NCBI GenBank assembly: GCA_017631955.1
Contig: JAGBSJ010000040.1
Span: forward strand, 1-37,502
Direction of reading: 5' to 3'
Source of the DNA: Clostridia bacterium
GTDB taxonomy: Bacteria; Bacillota; Clostridia; Oscillospirales; Acutalibacteraceae
Length of the DNA: 37,502 nt
A model generated the notes under the pieces. That model had not been told where the DNA came from, ran no database searches, and was given only the letters and a program-made list of their open reading frames with translations. The position numbers were made by a program, and so were the translations under genes. Of the stretch, positions 837-10,164 are shown in pieces. How positions within the stretch are numbered: the stretch's first letter is position 1; the number at the start of each line of letters is the position of its first letter.

Positions 837-1268
837 TTATCTGTATTTATTACAAAGATATTGCATTGCTAAATGATAGCCCTCTAGTCCTTTGCCAATT
901 ATATGTTCTTCGCAAGCCATACCTGCGTATGAAATTTGACGAAAATCTTCACGCTTGGTTACATCCGAAATATGAACTTCAACTGCGGGGATTGCCACAG
1001 ATTTAAGAGCATCTAAAATCGCAACACTTGTATGGGTATATGCAGCGGGATTAATTACTATTCCGTCAACTACTCCGTATGCCTGTTGGATTTTATCGAC
1101 TATATCGCCCTCATGATTTGATTGAAAACATTCAACTTCGCAATCAAGCTCATTTGCCCATTGTTCAATATCGCAAAGCAATGTTTCGTAATTCTGGCTA
1201 CCGTAAATGCCTGGCTCACGAATGCCTAACATATTTATATTTGGTCCGTTGATTACAAGAATTTTCAT
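837..1268 (-). CDS. aroQ: 3-dehydroquinate dehydratase, type II
   Basis: Type II dehydroquinase, 143 aa, the normal length. It dehydrates 3-dehydroquinate to 3-dehydroshikimate, step 3 of the shikimate pathway, in the cytoplasm. Visible motifs are INGPNINMLGIREPGIYG near the N-terminus (with the catalytic Tyr at the end), NHEGDIVDKIQ, INPAAYTHTSVAILDAL and EVHISDVTKREDFR. It is the last gene of the aromatic operon; its ATG overlaps the end of the aroE-aroK fusion by four bases, with AAGGAG upstream, so translational coupling is likely. The bidirectional terminator follows directly. Confidence 0.95.
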   Translation of the reverse strand: MKILVINGPNINMLGIREPGIYGSQNYETLLCDIEQWANELDCEVECFQSNHEGDIVDKIQQAYGVVDGIVINPAAYTHTSVAILDALKSVAIPAVEVHISDVTKREDFRQISYAGMACEEHIIGKGLEGYHLAMQYLCNKYR

Positions 1269-2488
1269 AAAGACACTATCTCCTTTATAATTCTGTTAGC
1301 TACTTCTTCTATTGTGCCGTTACCGTCAACCTCAACATCTGCAAACTGACGATAAAGTGGCATACGCTTTTCATAAAGTGCTTTTACTCCGTGCATTTGC
1401 GAAAGCGGTCTGCCGTTAGTCGGTAACAAATCTGCATCACGATTGATAAACACTATAATTCCGTTTTGCTTTAAGGAATTATAGTTTTCAGGTCGTGTTA
1501 CAACTCCCCCACCTGTTGCAATTATCTGACTTTTTTCTTTACCTGCAATATTAACTGCAACATTTTCACACCAACGGAAATAATCTTCACCTTTTTCTGC
1601 GAAAATTTGTGGTATTGGCATATTTTCAGTATCCACTATCATTTCATCAGTATCAATAAGGTCTTTTTTCAACAACTCGCTGAGTCGTTTACCTATTGTG
1701 GATTTACCACAACCCGCCATACCGATAAGAACAATATTGCACATTTGCAAAATAAGCGAGCGTTCAATCTGCACACACACTTCAAGTTCTGTAGTTGTAT
1801 CAAAGAAAATCTCGTGTGCCTTTTTAGCTTGGGCAACAAGCATTGAAAGACCCGCTGAAGATGGAATTTCTCTCTGCTCGGCATCTAAAATCAATCTTGT
1901 TTTAAGCGGATTGTACACTACATCAAGCACGCCTGAAAGCTTCCCGAATCGGTCAAGGTCAACAAGTGTATTAAGATTATCAGGATACATTCCCACAGGA
2001 GTAGTATTTACAATAATCTCTGCATCTGTATGTTTTATATACATATTAACATAGTTGTCGATACCATTTCTCGACACAACTATAATTTCACTTGCTTCCA
2101 TATCGCGAAGTACTGCTTGGACTGTTGCAGATGCGCCACCACTACCCAACACAAGTGCTTTTTTACCTTTAATGCTGATTCCTGACTTTTCAACCATATA
2201 CTTAAAACCGAAATAGTCAGTATTATATCCGCAAAGTTTACCGTCTTTTATTTTTATAGTATTGACCGCGCCTATTTTTTCTGCTTCAGGAGAAATCTCA
2301 TCAAGATAAGGAATAACCGCTTTTTTATATGGTATTGTCACATTTATGCCTTTGAAATTGTGTTCTTTCATAAATGCGTCAAGATTTTCAGGTGCAACTT
2401 CAAAAAGACTGTAATCCTTGTTGCCTAATGCACTATGGATTTGTGGGGAGAAACTGTGAGGTAAATGCTCGCCTAAAAGTCCGTACAT
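1265..2488 (-). CDS. aroE-aroK: Shikimate dehydrogenase - shikimate kinase fusion
   Basis: One 407-aa polypeptide carrying two consecutive shikimate enzymes. Residues 1 to about 245 are AroE: PHSFSPQIHSAL (substrate Ser pair), NVTIPYKK with the catalytic Lys, GYNTDYFGF, the NADP-binding LGSGGAS and VNTTPVGMYP. Residues about 249-407 are AroK: Walker A GMAGCGKST, DTDEMI, YFRWCE, ATGGGV and the GRPLSQ lid. All key residues of both halves are present, so both activities are expected (3-dehydroshikimate to shikimate to shikimate 3-phosphate). The AroE half is a little shorter than free-standing AroE and there is almost no linker. It starts right after pheA with GGAGGT upstream. Confidence 0.93.
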   Translation of the reverse strand: MYGLLGEHLPHSFSPQIHSALGNKDYSLFEVAPENLDAFMKEHNFKGINVTIPYKKAVIPYLDEISPEAEKIGAVNTIKIKDGKLCGYNTDYFGFKYMVEKSGISIKGKKALVLGSGGASATVQAVLRDMEASEIIVVSRNGIDNYVNMYIKHTDAEIIVNTTPVGMYPDNLNTLVDLDRFGKLSGVLDVVYNPLKTRLILDAEQREIPSSAGLSMLVAQAKKAHEIFFDTTTELEVCVQIERSLILQMCNIVLIGMAGCGKSTIGKRLSELLKKDLIDTDEMIVDTENMPIPQIFAEKGEDYFRWCENVAVNIAGKEKSQIIATGGGVVTRPENYNSLKQNGIIVFINRDADLLPTNGRPLSQMHGVKALYEKRMPLYRQFADVEVDGNGTIEEVANRIIKEIVSL

Positions 2489-2490
2489 TA

Positions 2491-3636
2491 TTACATTACC
2501 TCCGAATAGCTACCTAAATAGTGAAAATATTCGCACTCATCTTTTAACTGTTCAAGAATTTCATAGAATGCATTGTCATAAACCGAAACCGACATATCAA
2601 AATAAAACATAAATCCAAAGTCTTTATTCTGTATAGGTCTGCTTTCAATTTTTTGAACATTAATTCCCAATGCATAAAATCTTGCAAGAGTATGATAAAG
2701 CGAACCAGGGTGATGTGGCAAAGTAAGCACAAAACTTGTTTTGTCGGCACCGGGATAAATTTCTAAATCCTTTGAAATGCAGATAAAACGAGTATAGTTG
2801 TTATCTTTATTTTGCACGCTGTCAGAAATAAGTGTCATTCCATATAAATCACGACAATTTTCGGATGAGATAGCCGCAACATCTGTGCGACCACTTTCCA
2901 TAACCATTTTTGCCGCAACTGCAGTATTTTCGCAAACAGTAACTTTAATATTACTATGTTTGCGCAAAAACTCACTGCATTGATTAATTGCTTGTTCGTG
3001 AGAATAAATTTCTTTAATGCCGTCAAGAGTTGCACCTTTGTTACCCAAAAGGCAATGGTTGATTTTAAGACGAAAGCTCTTAACTACATAGAAATTATGC
3101 TCTGCCATTAAATCATAAACGCCGTTAACACTACCTGCGGTACTATTTTCAATCGGCAATACGCCGTATTTACAAAGTCCTTTTTCAACTGCATTTACAA
3201 CATCGTACCAAGTTTTGAAATATGATACAGTTGGGTATTTAAAAAGTTTTTCACAAGCAAGCCCTGAGTACGCGCCTTCAACGCCTTGGCACGCAACCAT
3301 TGCTTTTTGTGGGAACAATTTCTGTGTATTTTCAACTGCATACTTAATCTTTTCAGTCAGTTCACTATCTGTATTAAGATAGCGGTGTTGATATGAACGA
3401 GAAACACTCATAATTGTATCGTATAGCACGCGAGAGTAAACCTCTAAATCTTCACCCGCCATATTACTGATACGGTCAAGAAGTTCGCGTTCGCGCTTTG
3501 CATCAAGTACTGGAAGATTGTTTTCTTTCTTATACTGTGCAACTGACAAAGCTGTTTCCATACGCTCTTTCCAAAGGTCTATTATCTGATTGTCTATGTT
3601 ATTTATTTTTTCACGGATTATTGAAAGGTCTTCCAT
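2491..3636 (-). CDS. pheA: Chorismate mutase / prephenate dehydratase (P-protein)
   Basis: Bifunctional P-protein, 381 aa, converting chorismate to prephenate and then to phenylpyruvate for Phe synthesis. Residues 1 to about 88 are an AroQ-type chorismate mutase (IREKINNIDNQIIDLW, AQYKKENN). Residues about 112-290 are prephenate dehydratase, with GVEGAYSG, ENSTAGSVNGVYDLM and the NYTRF motif holding the catalytic Thr. The C-terminal 85 residues are an ACT domain with the Phe-binding ESRP motif, so allosteric Phe inhibition is expected. AAGGTGA precedes the ATG. This is the Phe branch of the operon, lying between aroC and the aroE-aroK fusion. Confidence 0.95.
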   Translation of the reverse strand: MEDLSIIREKINNIDNQIIDLWKERMETALSVAQYKKENNLPVLDAKRERELLDRISNMAGEDLEVYSRVLYDTIMSVSRSYQHRYLNTDSELTEKIKYAVENTQKLFPQKAMVACQGVEGAYSGLACEKLFKYPTVSYFKTWYDVVNAVEKGLCKYGVLPIENSTAGSVNGVYDLMAEHNFYVVKSFRLKINHCLLGNKGATLDGIKEIYSHEQAINQCSEFLRKHSNIKVTVCENTAVAAKMVMESGRTDVAAISSENCRDLYGMTLISDSVQNKDNNYTRFICISKDLEIYPGADKTSFVLTLPHHPGSLYHTLARFYALGINVQKIESRPIQNKDFGFMFYFDMSVSVYDNAFYEILEQLKDECEYFHYLGSYSEVM

Positions 3637-3645
3637 AATATCACC

Positions 3646-4710
3646 TTATAAAATTATGTCTAATATCGTAAACGCAGTTACTGCCTCAACTACTGGTACT
3701 GCGCGTTGAACGATGCAAGGGTCGTGTCTGCCTTGAATCTGCAATTTTTGTTCAGTTTTGTTTGCAATACTTACGCTATTCTGCTCTTTATAAATTGATG
3801 GAGTTGGCTTAATTGCGGTGCGGAAAACGATTGGCATGCCGTTTGTAATTCCGCCATTAATTCCACCTGCATTGTTAGTTGCGGTTTTGATTTCGCCATT
3901 AACTATGCAAAAATCATCATTGTTTTCACTACCGTAAAGGTCAGTAGCCAAAAAACCGTTGCCAAACTCAATACCCTTGATTGCAGGAATCCCAAAAATA
4001 TTTTTAGCAAGCATATTTTCAATGCCGTCAAACATAGGGTCGCCAACCCCCGCTTTAATACCTGTAACCGCACATTCAATTACACCGCCAACAGAGTCGC
4101 CCATTTCCCTTGCTTTTTCGATTTCTGCAACCATAAGTTTGCCTTTTTCATCGTCAATTACAGGAAAGTCTTTTTCTGCAGTATTCCATTTACCTATATT
4201 AACGAAATCAATTTTAGCGTCTTGCACATTTTTAACCTTTTGAATATGTGCTTGAATTTCTATGCCCATTTCTTCTAAAATCTGCATACATACTGCACCT
4301 GCAAAACAAAGTGGTGCAGTAAGACGACCTGAGAAATGACCGCCGCCTGACACATCATTAAATCCGTTGTAGCGAATATTACCGCTGAAATCCGCGTGAG
4401 ATGGTCGAGGTGTGTCCATAATATTATTATAGTCCGCTGAATGCTGATTTGTATTTTTTATTACTGCACAAAGGGGTGCGCCACAAGTTACATTGTTTAC
4501 TAGTCCTGAAATAATCTCAGGTGTATCGGCTTCTTTTCTTTGTGTGGAAAGGGAATTTTGACCTGGTGCACGACGAGTCATAAACGCCTTAACTTTTTCC
4601 ATATCTATTTTTTTGCCTGCAGGAAGTCCATCAATCACAACTCCTATACCATTAGAATGTGATTGACCGAAAACTGATATTTTAATTTTATTTCCCGTCA
4701 TTGATGACAT
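3646..4710 (-). CDS. aroC: Chorismate synthase
   Basis: Chorismate synthase, about 354 aa, making chorismate from EPSP with reduced FMN; last step of the common pathway. Motifs seen are FGQSHSNGIGVVIDGLPAG, RRAPGQNSLSTQRKE, RPSHADFSGNIRYNGFND and GGGHFSGRLTAP. The ATG at 4710 was chosen because GGAGGG lies seven bases upstream; an in-frame ATG at 4716 is too close to that site. The gene overlaps the end of aroA by about 20 bases, which suggests coupling. No flavin reductase gene is seen nearby. Confidence 0.94.
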   Translation of the reverse strand: MSSMTGNKIKISVFGQSHSNGIGVVIDGLPAGKKIDMEKVKAFMTRRAPGQNSLSTQRKEADTPEIISGLVNNVTCGAPLCAVIKNTNQHSADYNNIMDTPRPSHADFSGNIRYNGFNDVSGGGHFSGRLTAPLCFAGAVCMQILEEMGIEIQAHIQKVKNVQDAKIDFVNIGKWNTAEKDFPVIDDEKGKLMVAEIEKAREMGDSVGGVIECAVTGIKAGVGDPMFDGIENMLAKNIFGIPAIKGIEFGNGFLATDLYGSENNDDFCIVNGEIKTATNNAGGINGGITNGMPIVFRTAIKPTPSIYKEQNSVSIANKTEQKLQIQGRHDPCIVQRAVPVVEAVTAFTILDIIL

Positions 4711-5962
4711 TTGCATTCCCTCCTAAACTGTTAAAATCGTTAAAGAAATGTGGGTATGATTTTTCAACCGCTTTATAATCTGTAATATCAACAGGTAATG
4801 AACATTCACTACTTAAAATTGCCGCTGACATTACAATTCGGTGGTCGTTATAACCCTCAACTACTCTGCCTATTAACTCGTTATCACTCCAGATAACAAG
4901 TCCATCATCAGTTTCACTTACCGCCGCACCGACTGTATCAAGCATTTGAAAAACTGATTGAATTCGGTCACTTTCTTTTATGCGAAGTCGACCTGCATTT
5001 ATAATATGAGTTGCACCTTTTTCGCAACAAGCCGCGAGCACTGAAATTATAGGCACTAAATCGGGAATATCGCCCGCGTCGACTATTGTGCCGAAAAGGC
5101 GATTTTTCTTAACTGTAATTTCTGTACCATCAATTGTTACATCTGCACCCATTCGGCGAAGAATTTCAAGAATTTTCTTGTCACCTTGTGGTGAATTTAT
5201 ATCAAGTCCTGTTACTGTAATGCCATCTTTTGAAAGTGCGCCTGCACAAAGAAAAAATGCACCATTTGACCAGTCACCATCAACGGTGATTTCTGTTGGA
5301 GAAATATATTTCTGATTACCTTTAATTATGTAAAGGTTTTCTTCTTCTACAATTTCAATACCAAACTTTTTAAGTGCAGAAATTGTAATATTAAGATACG
5401 AGCGTGACTCAACAGGCGGAATAAGTTTTATTTTACTATCACCATTAAGAATTGGAAGTGCAAAAAGAAGTCCTGTAATAAACTGTGAGCTTATATTCCC
5501 CGCAATTTCATACTCCCCTGCCTGTAAATTCCCTGTAAGATGAAGTGGAAAATCACTGCCCGTATGGAATGTTACACCTTTTTTCTCCATTTCTTCTTTT
5601 AACGGAGAAATTGGTCTTTCGGGTAATCTACCTTGCCCTTTGAATGTAGCATCAATGCCTAACGAAGATACTACAGGCAATAAAAATCTTAAGGTTGAGC
5701 CGCTTTCAATACAATTAAGTGTTGCCTTTTTATTAAATGGTTGTGGGGCAACAGTAATTGCACCGTTACCCACAGTAATATCTGCACCCATACTTTTAAG
5801 ACACTCTGCAGTTGCCACAATATCTTTTGACAAACAGTTACAGTTGATTTTTGTAGGTTTGTCAGAGAGGGCAGCACAGATAAGCAGTCGGTGTGCATCT
5901 GATTTTGATGAAATTGCATTTATTCGTCCAGAAAGTTTAGACGGAGTACATCTCATTTCCAT
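4688..5962 (-). CDS. aroA: EPSP synthase (3-phosphoshikimate 1-carboxyvinyltransferase)
   Basis: EPSP synthase, 424 aa, joining PEP to shikimate 3-phosphate. Motifs: SKSDAHRLLICAAL with the N-terminal catalytic Lys, ESGSTLRFLLPV (the PEP-site loop), GRLPERPISPL, DIPDLVPIISVLAA, RLRIKESDRI and GYNDHRIVMSAA. Both inside-out alpha/beta domains are complete. The ATG follows the aroB stop by one base; a second in-frame ATG lies six bases further on, so the exact start is uncertain by two residues. Confidence 0.94.
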   Translation of the reverse strand: MEMRCTPSKLSGRINAISSKSDAHRLLICAALSDKPTKINCNCLSKDIVATAECLKSMGADITVGNGAITVAPQPFNKKATLNCIESGSTLRFLLPVVSSLGIDATFKGQGRLPERPISPLKEEMEKKGVTFHTGSDFPLHLTGNLQAGEYEIAGNISSQFITGLLFALPILNGDSKIKLIPPVESRSYLNITISALKKFGIEIVEEENLYIIKGNQKYISPTEITVDGDWSNGAFFLCAGALSKDGITVTGLDINSPQGDKKILEILRRMGADVTIDGTEITVKKNRLFGTIVDAGDIPDLVPIISVLAACCEKGATHIINAGRLRIKESDRIQSVFQMLDTVGAAVSETDDGLVIWSDNELIGRVVEGYNDHRIVMSAAILSSECSLPVDITDYKAVEKSYPHFFNDFNSLGGNANVINDGK

Positions 5963-7018
5963 TTAATTCATGCCTTTTTCAATAAAATTCAATAAATCCT
6001 CAACAGGAAGTTTCATAATTTTGCAAAGTCCATATTTTTCAGGGACTATAAGTGCTATAGTGTCAAGCGTTCTCTTTTTATCCGAAAGTGAAACCTTATA
6101 TAATTCTTCTGGGGTAAAATCGCAACTTGTTGGCAAGTTATTTGCTTTAAGAATAGGTAAAAGTACATCACTGTAATCTTTGTCGGACATACCGATTTCA
6201 TAAGCACCTTTTGTTGCAATAACCATACCAATTGCAACCGCGTTACCGTGGGAAATTGTAAGATTACTGCATTTTTCAATAGCGTGGCCAATTGTATGAC
6301 CAAAATTGAGAAGCTTTCTTTCGCCTTTTTCAAATTCGTCGTGGTCAACAACATCTCGCTTAATCTCAACACAACGCTTGATTACATATTCTATATTTTC
6401 TTTTATACTGTTATTGCTTAAATATGTAAGGAATTCACCATCTAAAATCATACCGTATTTAACAATTTCGGCACAACCCTCATTAAAAGTTTCGGGTGGC
6501 AAAGTATTAAGCGTTTCGCAATCTGCATAAACTGCGATTGGCTGATAAAATGCACCACAAAGATTTTTGCCGGCATTTAAGTTGATTGCAGTTTTACCGC
6601 CAACAGACGAGTCAACCATTGAAAGCACAGTTGTAGGAATCTGCACAAAATCCACACCACGAAGATAGGTGCTTGCCACAAATCCAGTAAGGTCACCTGT
6701 TACGCCACCACCAAGAGCTACAAAAAGGTCTGTTCTTGTAATACTATTTTCTGCACAGAATTCTTGCATTTTACCGAAATTTTCAAGTGATTTCGCGTTC
6801 TCACCGTGTGAGAATACAAATTCACAAACTGAATAACCTGCCCCAGTCAAACTGTTTTTTACCCTTTCACCATAGAGTGCATAAACTGTGTCATCAGACA
6901 CAAGTACTACTCGGCAAGCTTTTTTGATTTCACTAATTTTCTCGCCTATTGTATCAAGAAACCCCGTACCGATATGCACAATGTATTCTTTTGATGCGGA
7001 TACTTTAACTGTTTCCAT
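5963..7018 (-). CDS. aroB: 3-dehydroquinate synthase
   Basis: NAD- and metal-dependent cyclase turning DAHP into 3-dehydroquinate, step 2 of the pathway, about 351 aa. Motifs: LGGGVTGDLTGFVASTYLRG, PTTVLSMVDSSVGGKTAIN, NEGCAEIVKYGMI and LLNFGHTIGHAIE, which contain the metal-binding Glu and His residues. The ATG at 7018 is preferred over an upstream GTG at 7027 because GGGTGA lies just before it; that same GGGTGA contains the tyrA stop, so the genes are coupled. Confidence 0.94.
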   Translation of the reverse strand: METVKVSASKEYIVHIGTGFLDTIGEKISEIKKACRVVLVSDDTVYALYGERVKNSLTGAGYSVCEFVFSHGENAKSLENFGKMQEFCAENSITRTDLFVALGGGVTGDLTGFVASTYLRGVDFVQIPTTVLSMVDSSVGGKTAINLNAGKNLCGAFYQPIAVYADCETLNTLPPETFNEGCAEIVKYGMILDGEFLTYLSNNSIKENIEYVIKRCVEIKRDVVDHDEFEKGERKLLNFGHTIGHAIEKCSNLTISHGNAVAIGMVIATKGAYEIGMSDKDYSDVLLPILKANNLPTSCDFTPEELYKVSLSDKKRTLDTIALIVPEKYGLCKIMKLPVEDLLNFIEKGMN

Positions 7019-7023
7019 GTTTG

Positions 7024-7857
7024 TCACCCATCAATCTGTTCTTTTAATAGTTTTCCATCGCGAAGAAGTTCTTCTAATCTTTCGCGGTCATTGTTTTCCA
7101 TTGCCTCTTTATATTGTACCAAATTATTCACTATGGAGTCAATTTCATTTATAAGATTATCACGGTTTTCTAAAAATAATTCTGACCACATATTTTCATT
7201 AAGATATGCAACTCTTGTCAAATCTTTGTAACTGCCTGCCGAAAAACCCTTATGAATAAGAGCATTGGGACTTTTCACATAAGCGTTTGACACTATGTGA
7301 GCAAGCTGAGATGTGAAAGCGATTATCTTATCGTGTTTGTCAGGAGTTGACATCTGAATATTTGTAAATCCAATTTTAAGGAATAATTCTTTAATGGTAT
7401 TAATATAACCCCACGGTGTATCTTCATAAGGAGTAAGAATCATTGATGAATTGTTGAAGATTTTAGCCGTTGAGTGTTCAAATCCGGACAAGTGCAAACC
7501 CGCCATTGGATGCGCACCAATAAACACAAAATCATTCTCTTTTGCAGTTTCATAAAGGGCATCACAGACATAGCGTTTTACACCACTTATGTCCATAACG
7601 ATTGCACCTTTTTTGAAATTGTTTGCATTTTCTTTAATATAATCAATAGTAGCTTCAGGGTAAAGAGAAACAATAACCAAATCGCACTCTTTTAAATCCT
7701 CTTTTGTAAGTTCTTTTTCGATTGCACCTACAAAAAGTGCTTTTTGTACTGCTTCGGGGCTCCTATTTGTTCCCCACACAGTATGCTCTGTGCCAAAACT
7801 AATTGCCTTAGCAAGTGAGCCACCCATAAGACCTAAACCAATAATTCCGATTTTCAT
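7024..7857 (-). CDS. tyrA: Prephenate dehydrogenase
   Basis: Prephenate dehydrogenase for Tyr synthesis, 277 aa. The N-terminus is a Rossmann fold with GIIGLGLMGGSLAKA. Residues about 115-120 (GAHPMAG) and the TSQLAHIVSNA segment, with its conserved His, form the prephenate site. There is no C-terminal ACT domain and no fused chorismate mutase, so the chorismate mutase of PheA must supply prephenate. The ATG follows the aroF stop by one base and has only a weak, distant ribosome site, which points to translational coupling. Confidence 0.92.
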   Translation of the reverse strand: MKIGIIGLGLMGGSLAKAISFGTEHTVWGTNRSPEAVQKALFVGAIEKELTKEDLKECDLVIVSLYPEATIDYIKENANNFKKGAIVMDISGVKRYVCDALYETAKENDFVFIGAHPMAGLHLSGFEHSTAKIFNNSSMILTPYEDTPWGYINTIKELFLKIGFTNIQMSTPDKHDKIIAFTSQLAHIVSNAYVKSPNALIHKGFSAGSYKDLTRVAYLNENMWSELFLENRDNLINEIDSIVNNLVQYKEAMENNDRERLEELLRDGKLLKEQIDG

Positions 7858-7858
7858 T

Positions 7859-8860
7859 TTATTTCACTGCTTCCAATACTTTATTTACTGAATTCACAAC
7901 ATCTGTGAATTGTGGAGGTGTAAGTGCCTGTGGACCATCGCAAAGTGCTTTTGCAGGGTCGTTATGTACTTCAATCATAAGACCATCTGCACCACAAGCG
8001 GCCGCTGCCAACGACATTGGTTTTACAAATCTTGCAATACCTGACGCGTGTGATGGGTCAATAACAACAGGTAAGTGTGATTTTTCTTTAAGCATTGGAA
8101 CTGCTGACAAATCAAGAGTGTTTCGAGTAGCAGTTTCAAATGTACGAATACCACGCTCACAAAGAATAACTTTTTCATTACCGCCTGCCATAATATACTC
8201 TGCACTCATAAGCAATTCTTGGAATGTGCTTGAAAGGCCACGCTTTAAGAAAATTGGTTTATCAAGATGACCAAGCTCTTTCAAAAGTTCAAAGTTCTGC
8301 ATATTACGAGCGCCAACTTGAATAATATCAACATTCTCGAAAAGCGGAATATGAGATGCATCCATAATTTCGGTTACGATTGGCATTCCTGTTTCTTTTT
8401 TTGCTTCAAGCATTAATTCAAGACCTTCGCCACGCATACCTTGGAAAGCGTATGGAGAAGTACGGGGCTTGAATGCACCACCACGAAGGAAGTTTGCACC
8501 TGCTGCTTTAACATCTTTTGCAATACTTAAAATCTGTTCTCTTGATTCGATTGAGCAAGGACCTGCAAAAAATTGGAAATTGCCACCACCGATTTTATAA
8601 CCTTCAACATCAATAACTGTATCATCCGGGTGGAATTTTCTATTTGCACATTTGTATGGCTCTGAAATTCGTCTTACATCTTCAACAATGTCAAGACTTT
8701 GAATTAAATCAATATCAACTCGGCTTGTGTCACCGATAAGACCAAGAATTGTTTGGTATTCACCCACAACCTCATTAATAACGAGCTTTTGCTCGTGCAA
8801 CCAATTAGTTAAATTTTCGACTTTTTTAGGGTCAACCTGATTTTTAAGAATAACAACCAT
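7859..8860 (-). CDS. aroF: DAHP synthase, type I-beta with N-terminal ferredoxin-like domain
   Basis: 3-deoxy-7-phosphoheptulonate synthase, 333 aa, the committing step from PEP and erythrose 4-phosphate. Residues 1 to about 75 are the small ferredoxin-like domain that gives feedback control (Tyr/Phe) in the Thermotoga-type enzyme. The catalytic barrel follows: FFAGPCSIESREQ, GGAFKPRTSPYAFQG, QVGARNMQNFELL, FLKRGLSS and VIDPSHASG. It is the first enzyme gene of the aromatic operon, sits directly behind the attenuator terminator, and has a strong AAGGAGT ribosome site. Control is therefore probably double: attenuation of transcription and feedback on the enzyme. Confidence 0.95.
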   Translation of the reverse strand: MVVILKNQVDPKKVENLTNWLHEQKLVINEVVGEYQTILGLIGDTSRVDIDLIQSLDIVEDVRRISEPYKCANRKFHPDDTVIDVEGYKIGGGNFQFFAGPCSIESREQILSIAKDVKAAGANFLRGGAFKPRTSPYAFQGMRGEGLELMLEAKKETGMPIVTEIMDASHIPLFENVDIIQVGARNMQNFELLKELGHLDKPIFLKRGLSSTFQELLMSAEYIMAGGNEKVILCERGIRTFETATRNTLDLSAVPMLKEKSHLPVVIDPSHASGIARFVKPMSLAAAACGADGLMIEVHNDPAKALCDGPQALTPPQFTDVVNSVNKVLEAVK

Positions 8861-8885
8861 TTTTTCTTACTCCTTTAACAAAAAA

Positions 8886-8915
8886 ATCTCACGGTGTACT
8901 GTTTCACCGTGAGAT
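8886..8915 (-). terminator. Attenuator terminator hairpin upstream of DAHP synthase
   Basis: On the minus strand an 11-bp perfect stem (atctcacggtg / caccgtgagat, arms 8905-8915 and 8886-8896) with an 8-base loop is followed by seven T residues and then the aroF ribosome site. It lies inside the transcribed leader, between the leader peptide and the first enzyme gene. The upstream arm can instead pair with 8953-8962, see the attenuator entry. Confidence 0.88.
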
Positions 8916-8941
8916 AAAAATTACTATAATTTCAGCAATCC

Positions 8942-9028
8942 TTATTTTTCCGCAGCGAAACAAGCCCTTGACTTTGTAAAGTAAAAGCTAAAGTAAAAAT
9001 ATTCAGCTGCGAAATTAAGAGTTTTCAT
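8942..9028 (-). CDS. Phe/Tyr-rich leader peptide of the aromatic operon
   Basis: A 28-codon open frame, MKTLNFAAEYFYFSFYFT followed by KSRACFAAEK. Seven of eight consecutive codons are Tyr or Phe (YFYFSFYF), and two more Phe codons flank them. An AGAGGT ribosome site lies seven bases before the ATG (9036-9041) and a near-consensus promoter lies just upstream. The peptide sits between that promoter and the attenuator terminator. Its job is almost certainly to sense charged tRNA-Phe and tRNA-Tyr through ribosome stalling; the peptide itself need have no function. It does not resemble any protein family. Confidence 0.87.
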   Translation of the reverse strand: MKTLNFAAEYFYFSFYFTKSRACFAAEK

Positions 9029-9059
9029 AAATATTACCTCTGTTTGCTAATTGTGGAAT

Positions 9060-9088
9060 ATTTTAGCACATTAAAGCGCTAATGTCAA
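9060..9088 (-). promoter_or_regulatory. Promoter of the aromatic operon
   Basis: On the minus strand a perfect TTGACA (9083-9088) and TAAAAT (9060-9065) are separated by 17 bases. The predicted transcript starts near 9053, about 25 bases before the leader peptide ATG. Confidence 0.88.
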
Positions 9089-9121
9089 TATTTTTATAGA
9101 AATTTTATATAACTAAAAGAA

Positions 9122-9147
9122 AAAGGGCGATTCGCAAATCGCCCTTA
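9122..9147 (-). terminator. trpS terminator
   Basis: A nine-bp stem (aagggcgat / atcgccctt) followed on the minus strand by a T run, just after the trpS stop. It separates trpS from the aromatic promoter. The stem closely resembles a hairpin at 22743-22760. Confidence 0.8.
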
Positions 9148-9156
9148 CATTGATTA

Positions 9157-10164
9157 TTATAATTGATACAAGCCAGATTTCTTCATCGCTTTATTTAATG
9201 TTCTTTGTGCAAAGCGGCTTGCCTTTTCAGCGCCATTTTTTGCACACTCATTAAGATATGCTTTATCGTTGATAAGACGATTGAATTCTGTTTTGAATGG
9301 GCGAAGTTCTTCAACAACCGCTTCCGCTACTGCAGATTTGAAATCGCCATAGCCCTTGCCGTCAAAATCCTTTTCAATCTGTTCATAAGAAAGACCTGTG
9401 CAACAAGAGTAAATACCCATAAGGTTGTTGATACCATCTTTGCCGTCAGCGTATCTTACTTTTGCTTCACTATCTGTAACTGCGCTCTTGATTTTCTTTA
9501 CAATTACATTGTCATCATCAAGCATTGAGATATAACCCTTTGGGTTCAAGTCAGACTTACTCATTTTTGATGTTGGGTCTTGTAACGACATAACTCTTGC
9601 GCCAACTTTACCGATAAATGGCTCTGGTAATGTAAATGTGTTGCCATAAACTGTATTGAAACGCTCTGCAATATCACGAGCAATTTCAAGATGCTGTTTC
9701 TGGTCCGCACCAATTGGCACATAGTCTGCCTGATAAAGAAGAATATCAGCAGCCATAAGAATTGGGTATGTAAAAAGACCTACATTTACATTTTCAGGGT
9801 GTTTTTCACTTTTATCTTTGAACTGTGTCATTCTTGCTGCCTCGCCAAACTGTGTGCAACAATTCAAAAGCCATGCAAGTTGAGCATGTTGTGGCACATG
9901 GCTTTGAATAAATACGATGCTTTCTTCCGGGTCAAGACCAAGAGCTAACAAAATTGCATAAAGTTCCATTGTGTTCTTGCGAAGTGTTGCGGGCTCAGGA
10001 CGAACTGTAAGAGAATGCAAATCCGCAACTGCATAAAGACAGTTGTAGTCATCTTTCATATTTTTCCAGTTTTTAAGCGCACCAAGGTAGTTGCCGAGTG
10101 TAGGAGTACCTGTTGGCTGAATCGCGCTTAAAACTATCTTTTTCTTTTCTACGGTGTTTTCCAT
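9157..10164 (-). CDS. trpS: Tryptophanyl-tRNA synthetase
   Basis: Class I tryptophanyl-tRNA synthetase, 335 aa, charging tRNA-Trp. The HIGH-like signature appears as PTGTPTLGNYLGAL and the second as KMSKS; the DQKQHLEIARDIAERFN segment that binds Trp is intact. It has its own promoter 36 bases upstream and its own terminator, so it appears monocistronic. The leader is short and contains no T-box, unlike many Firmicute synthetase genes. It is adjacent to the aromatic operon, but no trp biosynthesis genes are present. Confidence 0.95.
   Translation of the reverse strand: MENTVEKKKIVLSAIQPTGTPTLGNYLGALKNWKNMKDDYNCLYAVADLHSLTVRPEPATLRKNTMELYAILLALGLDPEESIVFIQSHVPQHAQLAWLLNCCTQFGEAARMTQFKDKSEKHPENVNVGLFTYPILMAADILLYQADYVPIGADQKQHLEIARDIAERFNTVYGNTFTLPEPFIGKVGARVMSLQDPTSKMSKSDLNPKGYISMLDDDNVIVKKIKSAVTDSEAKVRYADGKDGINNLMGIYSCCTGLSYEQIEKDFDGKGYGDFKSAVAEAVVEELRPFKTEFNRLINDKAYLNECAKNGAEKASRFAQRTLNKAMKKSGLYQL

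Follow-up and report, generated by a model that had tools for sequence, protein, structure and literature searches.

Leader-peptide attenuation is usually associated with the Proteobacteria, and T-boxes, which sense tRNA charging by binding one tRNA directly and without a ribosome, with the Firmicutes. That amino acid attenuators may have originated in the gamma-proteobacteria is suggested in the available part of a 2013 regulon survey (PMC3766115), and the accessible text of a study of attenuators in Actinobacteria reports none for Phe or Tyr (PMC1262725). Among Gram-positive bacteria, the portions of the literature at hand describe His leader-peptide attenuators in bacilli (PMC2965389) and in the B. 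cereus group, Eubacteriales and Erysipelotrichales (PMC9413887), an Ile/Leu attenuator peptide of the Staphylococcus aureus ilv-leu operon supported by suppressor mutations (PMC5794164), and a Lactococcus Leu/phe leader, RF01743, listed for Lactococcus lactis only (PMC2864571). At the gene encoding the entry enzyme of the shikimate pathway, the uORFC-13-1 family precedes aroF and comprises, in the excerpt available, 24 sequences from Acholeplasma and unknown environmental sources only, for which attenuation has been proposed (PMC8632094); the terms aroF and DAHP do not occur in the main text, the part available, of a T-box survey (PMC2494555). Here we describe a leader upstream of a clostridial DAHP synthase gene that is very probably a ribosome-mediated transcription attenuator, predicted from its sequence and that of its relatives to sense charged tRNA-Phe and tRNA-Tyr.

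The window, a 37,502-nucleotide stretch of DNA from a member of the clostridial family Acutalibacteraceae, carries on its minus strand trpS (9157-10164) and the gene for DAHP synthase (3-deoxy-7-phosphoheptulonate synthase; 7859-8860; NF006421, TIGR01361), separated by a 296-base intergenic gap that includes the trpS terminator (9146-9123). DAHP synthase is the first gene of the operon that would be regulated and is followed on the same strand by seven more shikimate/Phe/Tyr genes, namely a prephenate dehydrogenase gene (tyrA-like by family match; 7024-7857) and, at 837-7027, aroB, aroA, aroC, a pheA-like gene (chorismate mutase plus prephenate dehydratase), an aroE-shikimate kinase fusion and aroQ. 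The genes overlap or lie at most 9 bases apart, and this tight spacing suggests that they are co-transcribed. The content is that of a route to Phe and Tyr, and a trp gene is absent. The fusion protein (1265-2488) has 407 residues and combines shikimate dehydrogenase with shikimate kinase.

Within the gap, again on the minus strand, a sigma-70 type promoter-like sequence (TTGACA-17-TAAAAT with TG before the -10; 9060-9088) matches the consensus at 11/12 positions and would place the transcription start at about 9053. Since such sites numbered 3 in a consensus scan of 8600-9400, compared with 2.6 for shuffles, the promoter call draws on the quality and place of this site. A Shine-Dalgarno sequence (AGAGG, 9037-9041) precedes an ORF of 28 codons, MKTLNFAAEYFYFSFYFTKSRACFAAEK and a stop (8942-9028), which includes the putative sensor, the Tyr/Phe codon run YFYFSFYF (8978-9001); the run agrees with the products of an operon in which tyrA-like and pheA-like genes are both present. 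Region 1, the 5' arm of the putative protector stem (UUUCGCAGC, 9006-9014), was placed by folding and by covariation with region 2 (8948-8962), which can pair either with region 1 through 8956-8948 or with region 3 through 8962-8953. Region 3 (8900-8909), the 3' arm of the antiterminator, lies in the left arm and loop of an intrinsic terminator hairpin (3:4; 8886-8915) of 11 pairs, which is followed by a U-tract (T6, 8885-8880) and whose pairs covary in 34 relatives; the scanned stretch has 3 terminators against 0.3 in shuffles. In the antiterminator, 8962-8953 pairs with 8909-8900 over ten positions, two of them G-U; this helix overlaps the protector (8956-8953) as well as the terminator left arm and loop, and it encloses a middle AU-rich hairpin found by folding (8914-8945). 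Apart from this hairpin, which is added here, all of these parts, from the ORF and its YFYFSFYF run through protector stem, antiterminator and terminator to DAHP synthase, lie where a reading made from the sequence alone (hereafter the sequence-only reading) had placed them; it also called the promoter strong, which fits the 11/12 match and the good position but is not proven by a site count close to that of shuffles.

From this anatomy and its conservation we infer translation of the ORF, ribosome stalling, read-through and the sensing of two amino acids. RNA polymerase would transcribe the leader with a ribosome translating behind it. With charged tRNA-Phe and tRNA-Tyr plentiful, the ribosome would reach the stop codon at 8942 and cover region 2, so that the terminator (8915-8886) could form and transcription would stop. 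Should either tRNA become scarce, the ribosome would stall at 9001-8978 over region 1, and region 2, its partner occupied, could pair with region 3 before the right arm of the terminator is synthesized. The antiterminated polymerase would then continue into DAHP synthase, tyrA, pheA and the shikimate genes, so a single leader would gate production of both amino acids.

Conservation was examined in the best 80 of at least 593 candidate stretches with close DAHP synthases, which together with the window make a set of 81, and 450 bases upstream of the gene were scanned (less in five loci at a contig end) for short ORFs that have a matching Shine-Dalgarno sequence and five or more Phe/Tyr within nine codons. 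Cultured species among the carriers of the leader are Sporobacter termitidis DSM 10068 (L067), Angelakisella massiliensis (L017) and Yanshouia hominis (L027). In this best-matching set such an ORF was present in 56/81 loci, compared with 2/81 reverse complements and 21/1620 dinucleotide shuffles; sixteen other residue sets applied to the same DNA gave 0 to 23/81, the top three including Phe or Tyr. Six more loci (L035, L045, L084, L086, L088 and L089) have a Phe/Tyr leader with a Shine-Dalgarno sequence outside the pattern, which raises the total to 62/81, a rate that is no census because the 80 relatives are the nearest by protein identity. Among the 19/81 leaderless relatives, 3 are truncated, and in 13 an upstream frame of at least 60 open codons ends no more than 126 nt from the gene. 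Such a frame also occurs at 16/62 loci with a leader, so a place inside an operon explains only part of the leader's absence; in the class sample described below it occurs at 31/69 loci without and 6/39 with a leader. Leaderless loci thus tend to have another gene shortly upstream. On a tree of the 81 DAHP synthases the leader label requires 15 changes against 17.1 when shuffled (52/500 shuffles as low); it is spread over the tree in a way that favours neither a single origin nor several. A DAHP synthase clade of eight (L020, L032, L038, L056, L072, L085, L086 and L089) has the leader in 8/8 and keeps the layout with divergent arms, AACCGC...GCGGTT in four, with L072 nearer the common type. 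Leaders of this kind also occur in bins labelled Treponemataceae, Lentisphaerae, Planctomycetia and Victivallales (L035, L045, L084 and L088), indicative of either operon transfer or misbinned contigs.

Outside the Phe/Tyr run the 62 peptides, as judged by eye, share little sequence; FAAE and SAA are recurrent at the positions of the RNA arms, and by the same inspection RNA pairing accounts for them. A BLAST search of the leader DNA against 60 family genomes returned, besides the own genome, only short matches in 2. These fall at 9098-9058, where the query carries the promoter, and similarity at the DNA level thus fails to expose the leader family. The bare Phe/Tyr codon pattern is not in excess in the own genome (118 matches vs 172 in the control; 66+52 vs 86+86). 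Among the 30 of these 118 matches that were examined, ORFs in L095/L096, L101/L102, L104 and L113 passed the residue criterion besides the window leader and were judged by eye to be chance occurrences.

The arms of the three predicted pairings recur with the ORF. A terminator lies between run and gene in 59/62 leaders, compared with 169/620 shuffles, and an alignment made without reference to structure recovers a recurring UUUYGCUGCA after the run, CCGCAGUGAAA in the terminator left arm and, in many leaders, a complementary UUUGCAGCUGAA before the run. Arms were swapped between loci for the 58 of the 59 with long enough arms (n=57 after removal of one of an identical pair). Own arms pair better than swapped ones for 2:3 (-10.5 vs -7.5 kcal/mol; z -9.1; 0/5000 permutations) and for 1:2 (-9.6 vs -7.2 kcal/mol; z -8.2; 0/5000), whereas the control pair 1:3, which is not expected to covary, gave z -1.4 (419/5000). 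The signal persists in the 15 loci with unusual arms (2:3, z -3.7, 0/5000; 1:2, z -4.4, 3/5000) and is weaker when the arms of each locus are compared with their own shuffles, where 22/59 (2:3) and 24/59 (1:2) reach p 0.05. Covariation counts and the covariance model R1 were based on an alignment, A2, hand-picked for regular arms, which started from the loci with the usual region 3 motif minus L012, L013, L041, L061, L070 and L076 (40 sequences) and was reduced by L014, L032, L068, L081, L086 and L089 to 34. In these 34 sequences double-change cells in the terminator number 85, compared with 20.3 for shuffles (0/500). The 2:3 helix is 83.6% paired, slid versions do not exceed 57.3%, and 1/500 shuffles attained its covariation score; five 2:3 pairs are changed on both sides, a number reached in 34/500 shuffles. 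The compensatory changes that the sequence-only reading had proposed to look for are therefore present, with arms matched within loci for 2:3, 1:2 and the terminator and not for the control 1:3. The 1:2, 2:3 and 3:4 pairings, which by sequence exclude one another, thus have arms that covary across relatives.

Folding of the 193-base leader gave an energy z of -5.2 (0/200 shuffles as good), and the minimum-energy fold combines the protector (9014-9006:8956-8948), the middle hairpin (8945-8914) and the terminator. The duplex of the region-2 zone with the region-3 arm was better than for all 200 shuffles of the zone. When a ribosome occupies the Y/F run, the fold with the antiterminator (-27.4 kcal/mol) is close to the terminator fold, which is the best at -28.5 kcal/mol; for RNA ending at 8897 or 8893, before most of the terminator right arm, the antiterminator is the minimum-energy fold (-23.8). 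Given these near-equal energies, the switch must depend on the antiterminator forming first during transcription, and in these models it would be plausible co-transcriptionally and not at equilibrium. In a stall simulation of 59 loci, with the RNA ended just after the terminator loop, mean sequestration of the terminator left arm was 0.72 with ribosomes on the run versus 0.35 with a ribosome on the stop codon, the run value being higher in 53/59 loci. With the ribosome on the last Phe/Tyr it was 0.73, which exceeds the stop-codon value by 0.375, compared with a mean difference of 0.149 in 20 shuffles (sd 0.024, largest 0.20). Stalls at codons 2-4 gave 0.67 and ribosome-free RNA 0.58, and the window leader gave 0.81 on the run, 0.79 at codons 2-4 and 0.80 ribosome-free. 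Since the early-stall and ribosome-free values stay high, the folds support the ribosome on the stop codon, not the protector stem, as what releases the terminator. The role of the protector (1:2) is accordingly the weakest step of the proposed mechanism, as it draws on covariation and is poorly backed by truncated folds. Of the alternative structures set out in the sequence-only reading, all three pairings were recovered, although the terminator is slightly favoured at equilibrium even with a stalled ribosome; its protector pairs and covaries as proposed but barely protects in truncated folds. Its reading of the element as a ribosome-mediated attenuator thus gains from the ORF, terminator, antiterminator and matched arms and is left less secure at the protector.

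The distribution of the leader was assessed in a class sample of 118 genomes drawn evenly, 98 of which have a DAHP synthase match. The upstream regions of 108 genes were read, made up of 30 search loci, 72 stretches, the window and five loci from the covariance-model search; genes with truncated N-termini were left out, as were G061 and G116 at contig ends. Leaders in the class and family samples were called by the ORF criterion, and terminators and arms were assessed in the related set. The criterion flagged 41/108 class genes (2/108 reverse complements), from which L191, overlapping an Rfam T-box, and L198, a T-box by eye, were removed, giving 39/108 with a leader. In the family sample a Phe/Tyr leader precedes DAHP synthase at 18/30 best loci (0/30 reverse complements). 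The short ORF and its Phe/Tyr run, which the sequence-only reading had suggested seeking in related genomes, are hence kept among the relatives (62/81), the class (39/108) and the family (18/30). Nearly all leaders of these three samples contain two or more of each amino acid (60/62, 37/39 and 17/18, respectively), in agreement with the earlier suggestion that the run matches an operon making both; Trp occurs in 4/62, 7/39 and 5/18. A family subtype (L311, L319, L320, L323, L326 and L327) has an RFTGF- or RFISF-like start followed by Tyr/Phe, contains Trp in 4/6 and might add a Trp signal.

T-boxes take the place before DAHP synthase in part of the class. All 67 unflagged class loci were scanned with Rfam, and 13 have a T-box; of the 41 flagged loci 13 were scanned, with a T-box in L191 only, and the T-box core string is absent from all 39 leader loci, 28 of the 41 flagged loci having been judged without Rfam. 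T-boxes thus precede at least 15/108 class DAHP synthase genes. By our reading the specifier is UUC (Phe) in 8 of the 14 Rfam-found T-boxes, the other 6 being unreadable by pattern. A further observation is a TwoAYGGAY RNA motif just 3' of DAHP synthase in one locus (L166:2607-2763). At the gathering threshold Rfam 15 (4227 families) identified only two tRNAs and no leader family in the window, and no match in the leader-bearing loci L010, L011, L012 and L067; among the nine Rfam matches up to E 10 in 8850-9110 there is no T-box. The covariance model R1, built on regions 2-4, found 16 places in 15/291 class genomes, 5/16 of them plain terminators, and because of this insensitivity DAHP synthase upstream regions were counted directly as above. 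A DAHP synthase gene follows at ten R1 places, the window included, and all ten have a Phe/Tyr leader; among R1 places the L120 peptide equals that of L077, and that of L130 was read by eye from a cut locus.

These results bear on several other explanations of the element. It might be a leader-peptide attenuator that senses only one amino acid, or a general slowing of translation, with the other residue tolerated; the UUC specifiers of class T-boxes before DAHP synthase (8/14) indicate that Phe alone can signal at this gene, but the presence of both residues at least twice in 60/62, 37/39 and 17/18 leaders and an operon that makes both render this unlikely. A peptide that halts the ribosome through its nascent chain or when a free ligand is present, in the manner of TnaC or Erm leaders and not by codon hunger, would likewise be short and hydrophobic and lie upstream of a conditional terminator, as this one does. 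Such arrest seems very improbable for peptides that share little sequence beyond the run and whose recurrent FAAE and SAA are explained by the RNA arms.

We see next to no prospect for a T-box or other ligand riboswitch with an incidental ORF: T-boxes do occur in front of pheS in the window's genome and, in some members of the class, in front of DAHP synthase, but Rfam returned only the two tRNAs in the window at the gathering threshold, and no T-box up to E 10 around the leader. Hardly more credible is an ordinary 5' UTR whose terminator acts constitutively and whose aromatic ORF arose by chance. AT-rich DNA does supply Phe and Tyr codons, as the 118 pattern matches in the own genome against 172 in the control illustrate, yet place, Shine-Dalgarno sequence, frame and matched arms recur together in relatives despite the near-empty leader BLAST. 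An attenuator that responds to both tRNA-Phe and tRNA-Tyr is the reading that we retain.

The window's genome (1.4 Mb, 78% complete) also has six T-box matches, five of them above the cut-off, before pheS, leuA, trpB, thrS and cysE/cysS, and one below it before aspS (gene names from translations). In the pheS T-box (L001:1501-1721) we read the specifier as apparently UUC, so the genome appears to track tRNA-Phe by two devices. One R1 place, L123:1435-1600, is a Leu-rich leader, MKSQFSAQLNLLNLALLLQG, before a leuA-like gene, with a terminator and arms pairing 1:2 and 2:3. A second Leu-rich leader, MMQFMANLLGLLCITLLLCGGNAVCRATK, lies before leuA in L155, about 212 nt before the match, and is followed by a strong hairpin and a T-tract; it is the only one among the 30 best leuA loci (1/30). 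No Trp leader was found before trpE in 30 loci (0/30), 15/30 of which have a T-box-like string. These findings admit a speculative and rather doubtful reading, in which one old attenuator chassis (arms GCAG/CUGC/GCAG) carries swappable sensor codons, Phe/Tyr at DAHP synthase and Leu at leuA. It would have been kept at DAHP synthase for a two-tRNA report, because a T-box reads one tRNA and a ribosome on a mixed run reports two; the trunk enzyme would have to answer both amino acids, whereas one signal would do for trpE, where the Trp leader is lacking in those 30 loci. Against this reading, the Phe T-boxes before DAHP synthase elsewhere in the class imply that one signal can suffice.

The Phe/Tyr attenuator predicted at 39/108 class DAHP synthase genes, with a Phe T-box instead in other members, offers a natural comparison of two sensors of tRNA charging. 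For many anaerobes, including gut bacteria, it also predicts the way in which inflow into the shikimate pathway is controlled, by an RNA element that Rfam 15 matched neither in the window nor in four scanned leader loci. A Phe/Tyr leader before a clostridial DAHP synthase was not found among the hits listed from open-licence literature, nor did a search of the same literature with peptide strings return a relevant title; within that scope the statement of the sequence-only reading that it knew of no published clostridial description stands. Its wider contrast between Firmicutes, usually under T-box or TRAP control, and Proteobacteria, from which leader-peptide attenuation is best known, needs qualification. 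Attenuation in Firmicutes has already been published for amino acids other than these, and proposed for Acholeplasma aroF, in so far as the accessible portions of those papers describe it, and some members of the class have a T-box before DAHP synthase.

Compared with described systems, the T-box (RF00230) occurs before the same gene in at least 15/108 class members and is absent from the window leader, and RF01743, likewise an amino acid leader in a Firmicute, has no match there. The available text on uORFC-13-1 describes the same enzyme gene, a Phe uORF, a possible promoter and an adjoining intrinsic terminator (PMC8632094), and the window leader shares the place upstream of an aroF-type gene, the Phe-containing uORF and the terminator; that text states at least one Phe and describes neither a Tyr run nor an antiterminator, and the two were compared by description alone. 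The Firmicute His attenuators, as presented in the parts of the reports available (PMC2965389; PMC9413887), are of the regular leader-peptide type and exchange with T-boxes at the same genes, as here, but serve another amino acid and other operons. The S. aureus ilv-leu leader shares two kinds of sensor codon in one leader, a branched pathway and a Gram-positive host; it differs in its amino acids and, in the available account, in its antiterminator, for which pairing with the poly-U tail has been proposed (PMC5794164). With pheL and trpL of the Proteobacteria, whose mechanism is also outlined in the accessible part of PMC9413887, the window leader has in common the order of a short ORF of cognate codons, putative protector, antiterminator and terminator. 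Unlike them, it is clostridial and unmatched in Rfam, has a mixed Phe/Tyr run and heads a trunk operon whose first gene is that for DAHP synthase. The element looks like an undescribed and widespread member of a known, pheL/trpL-like kind.
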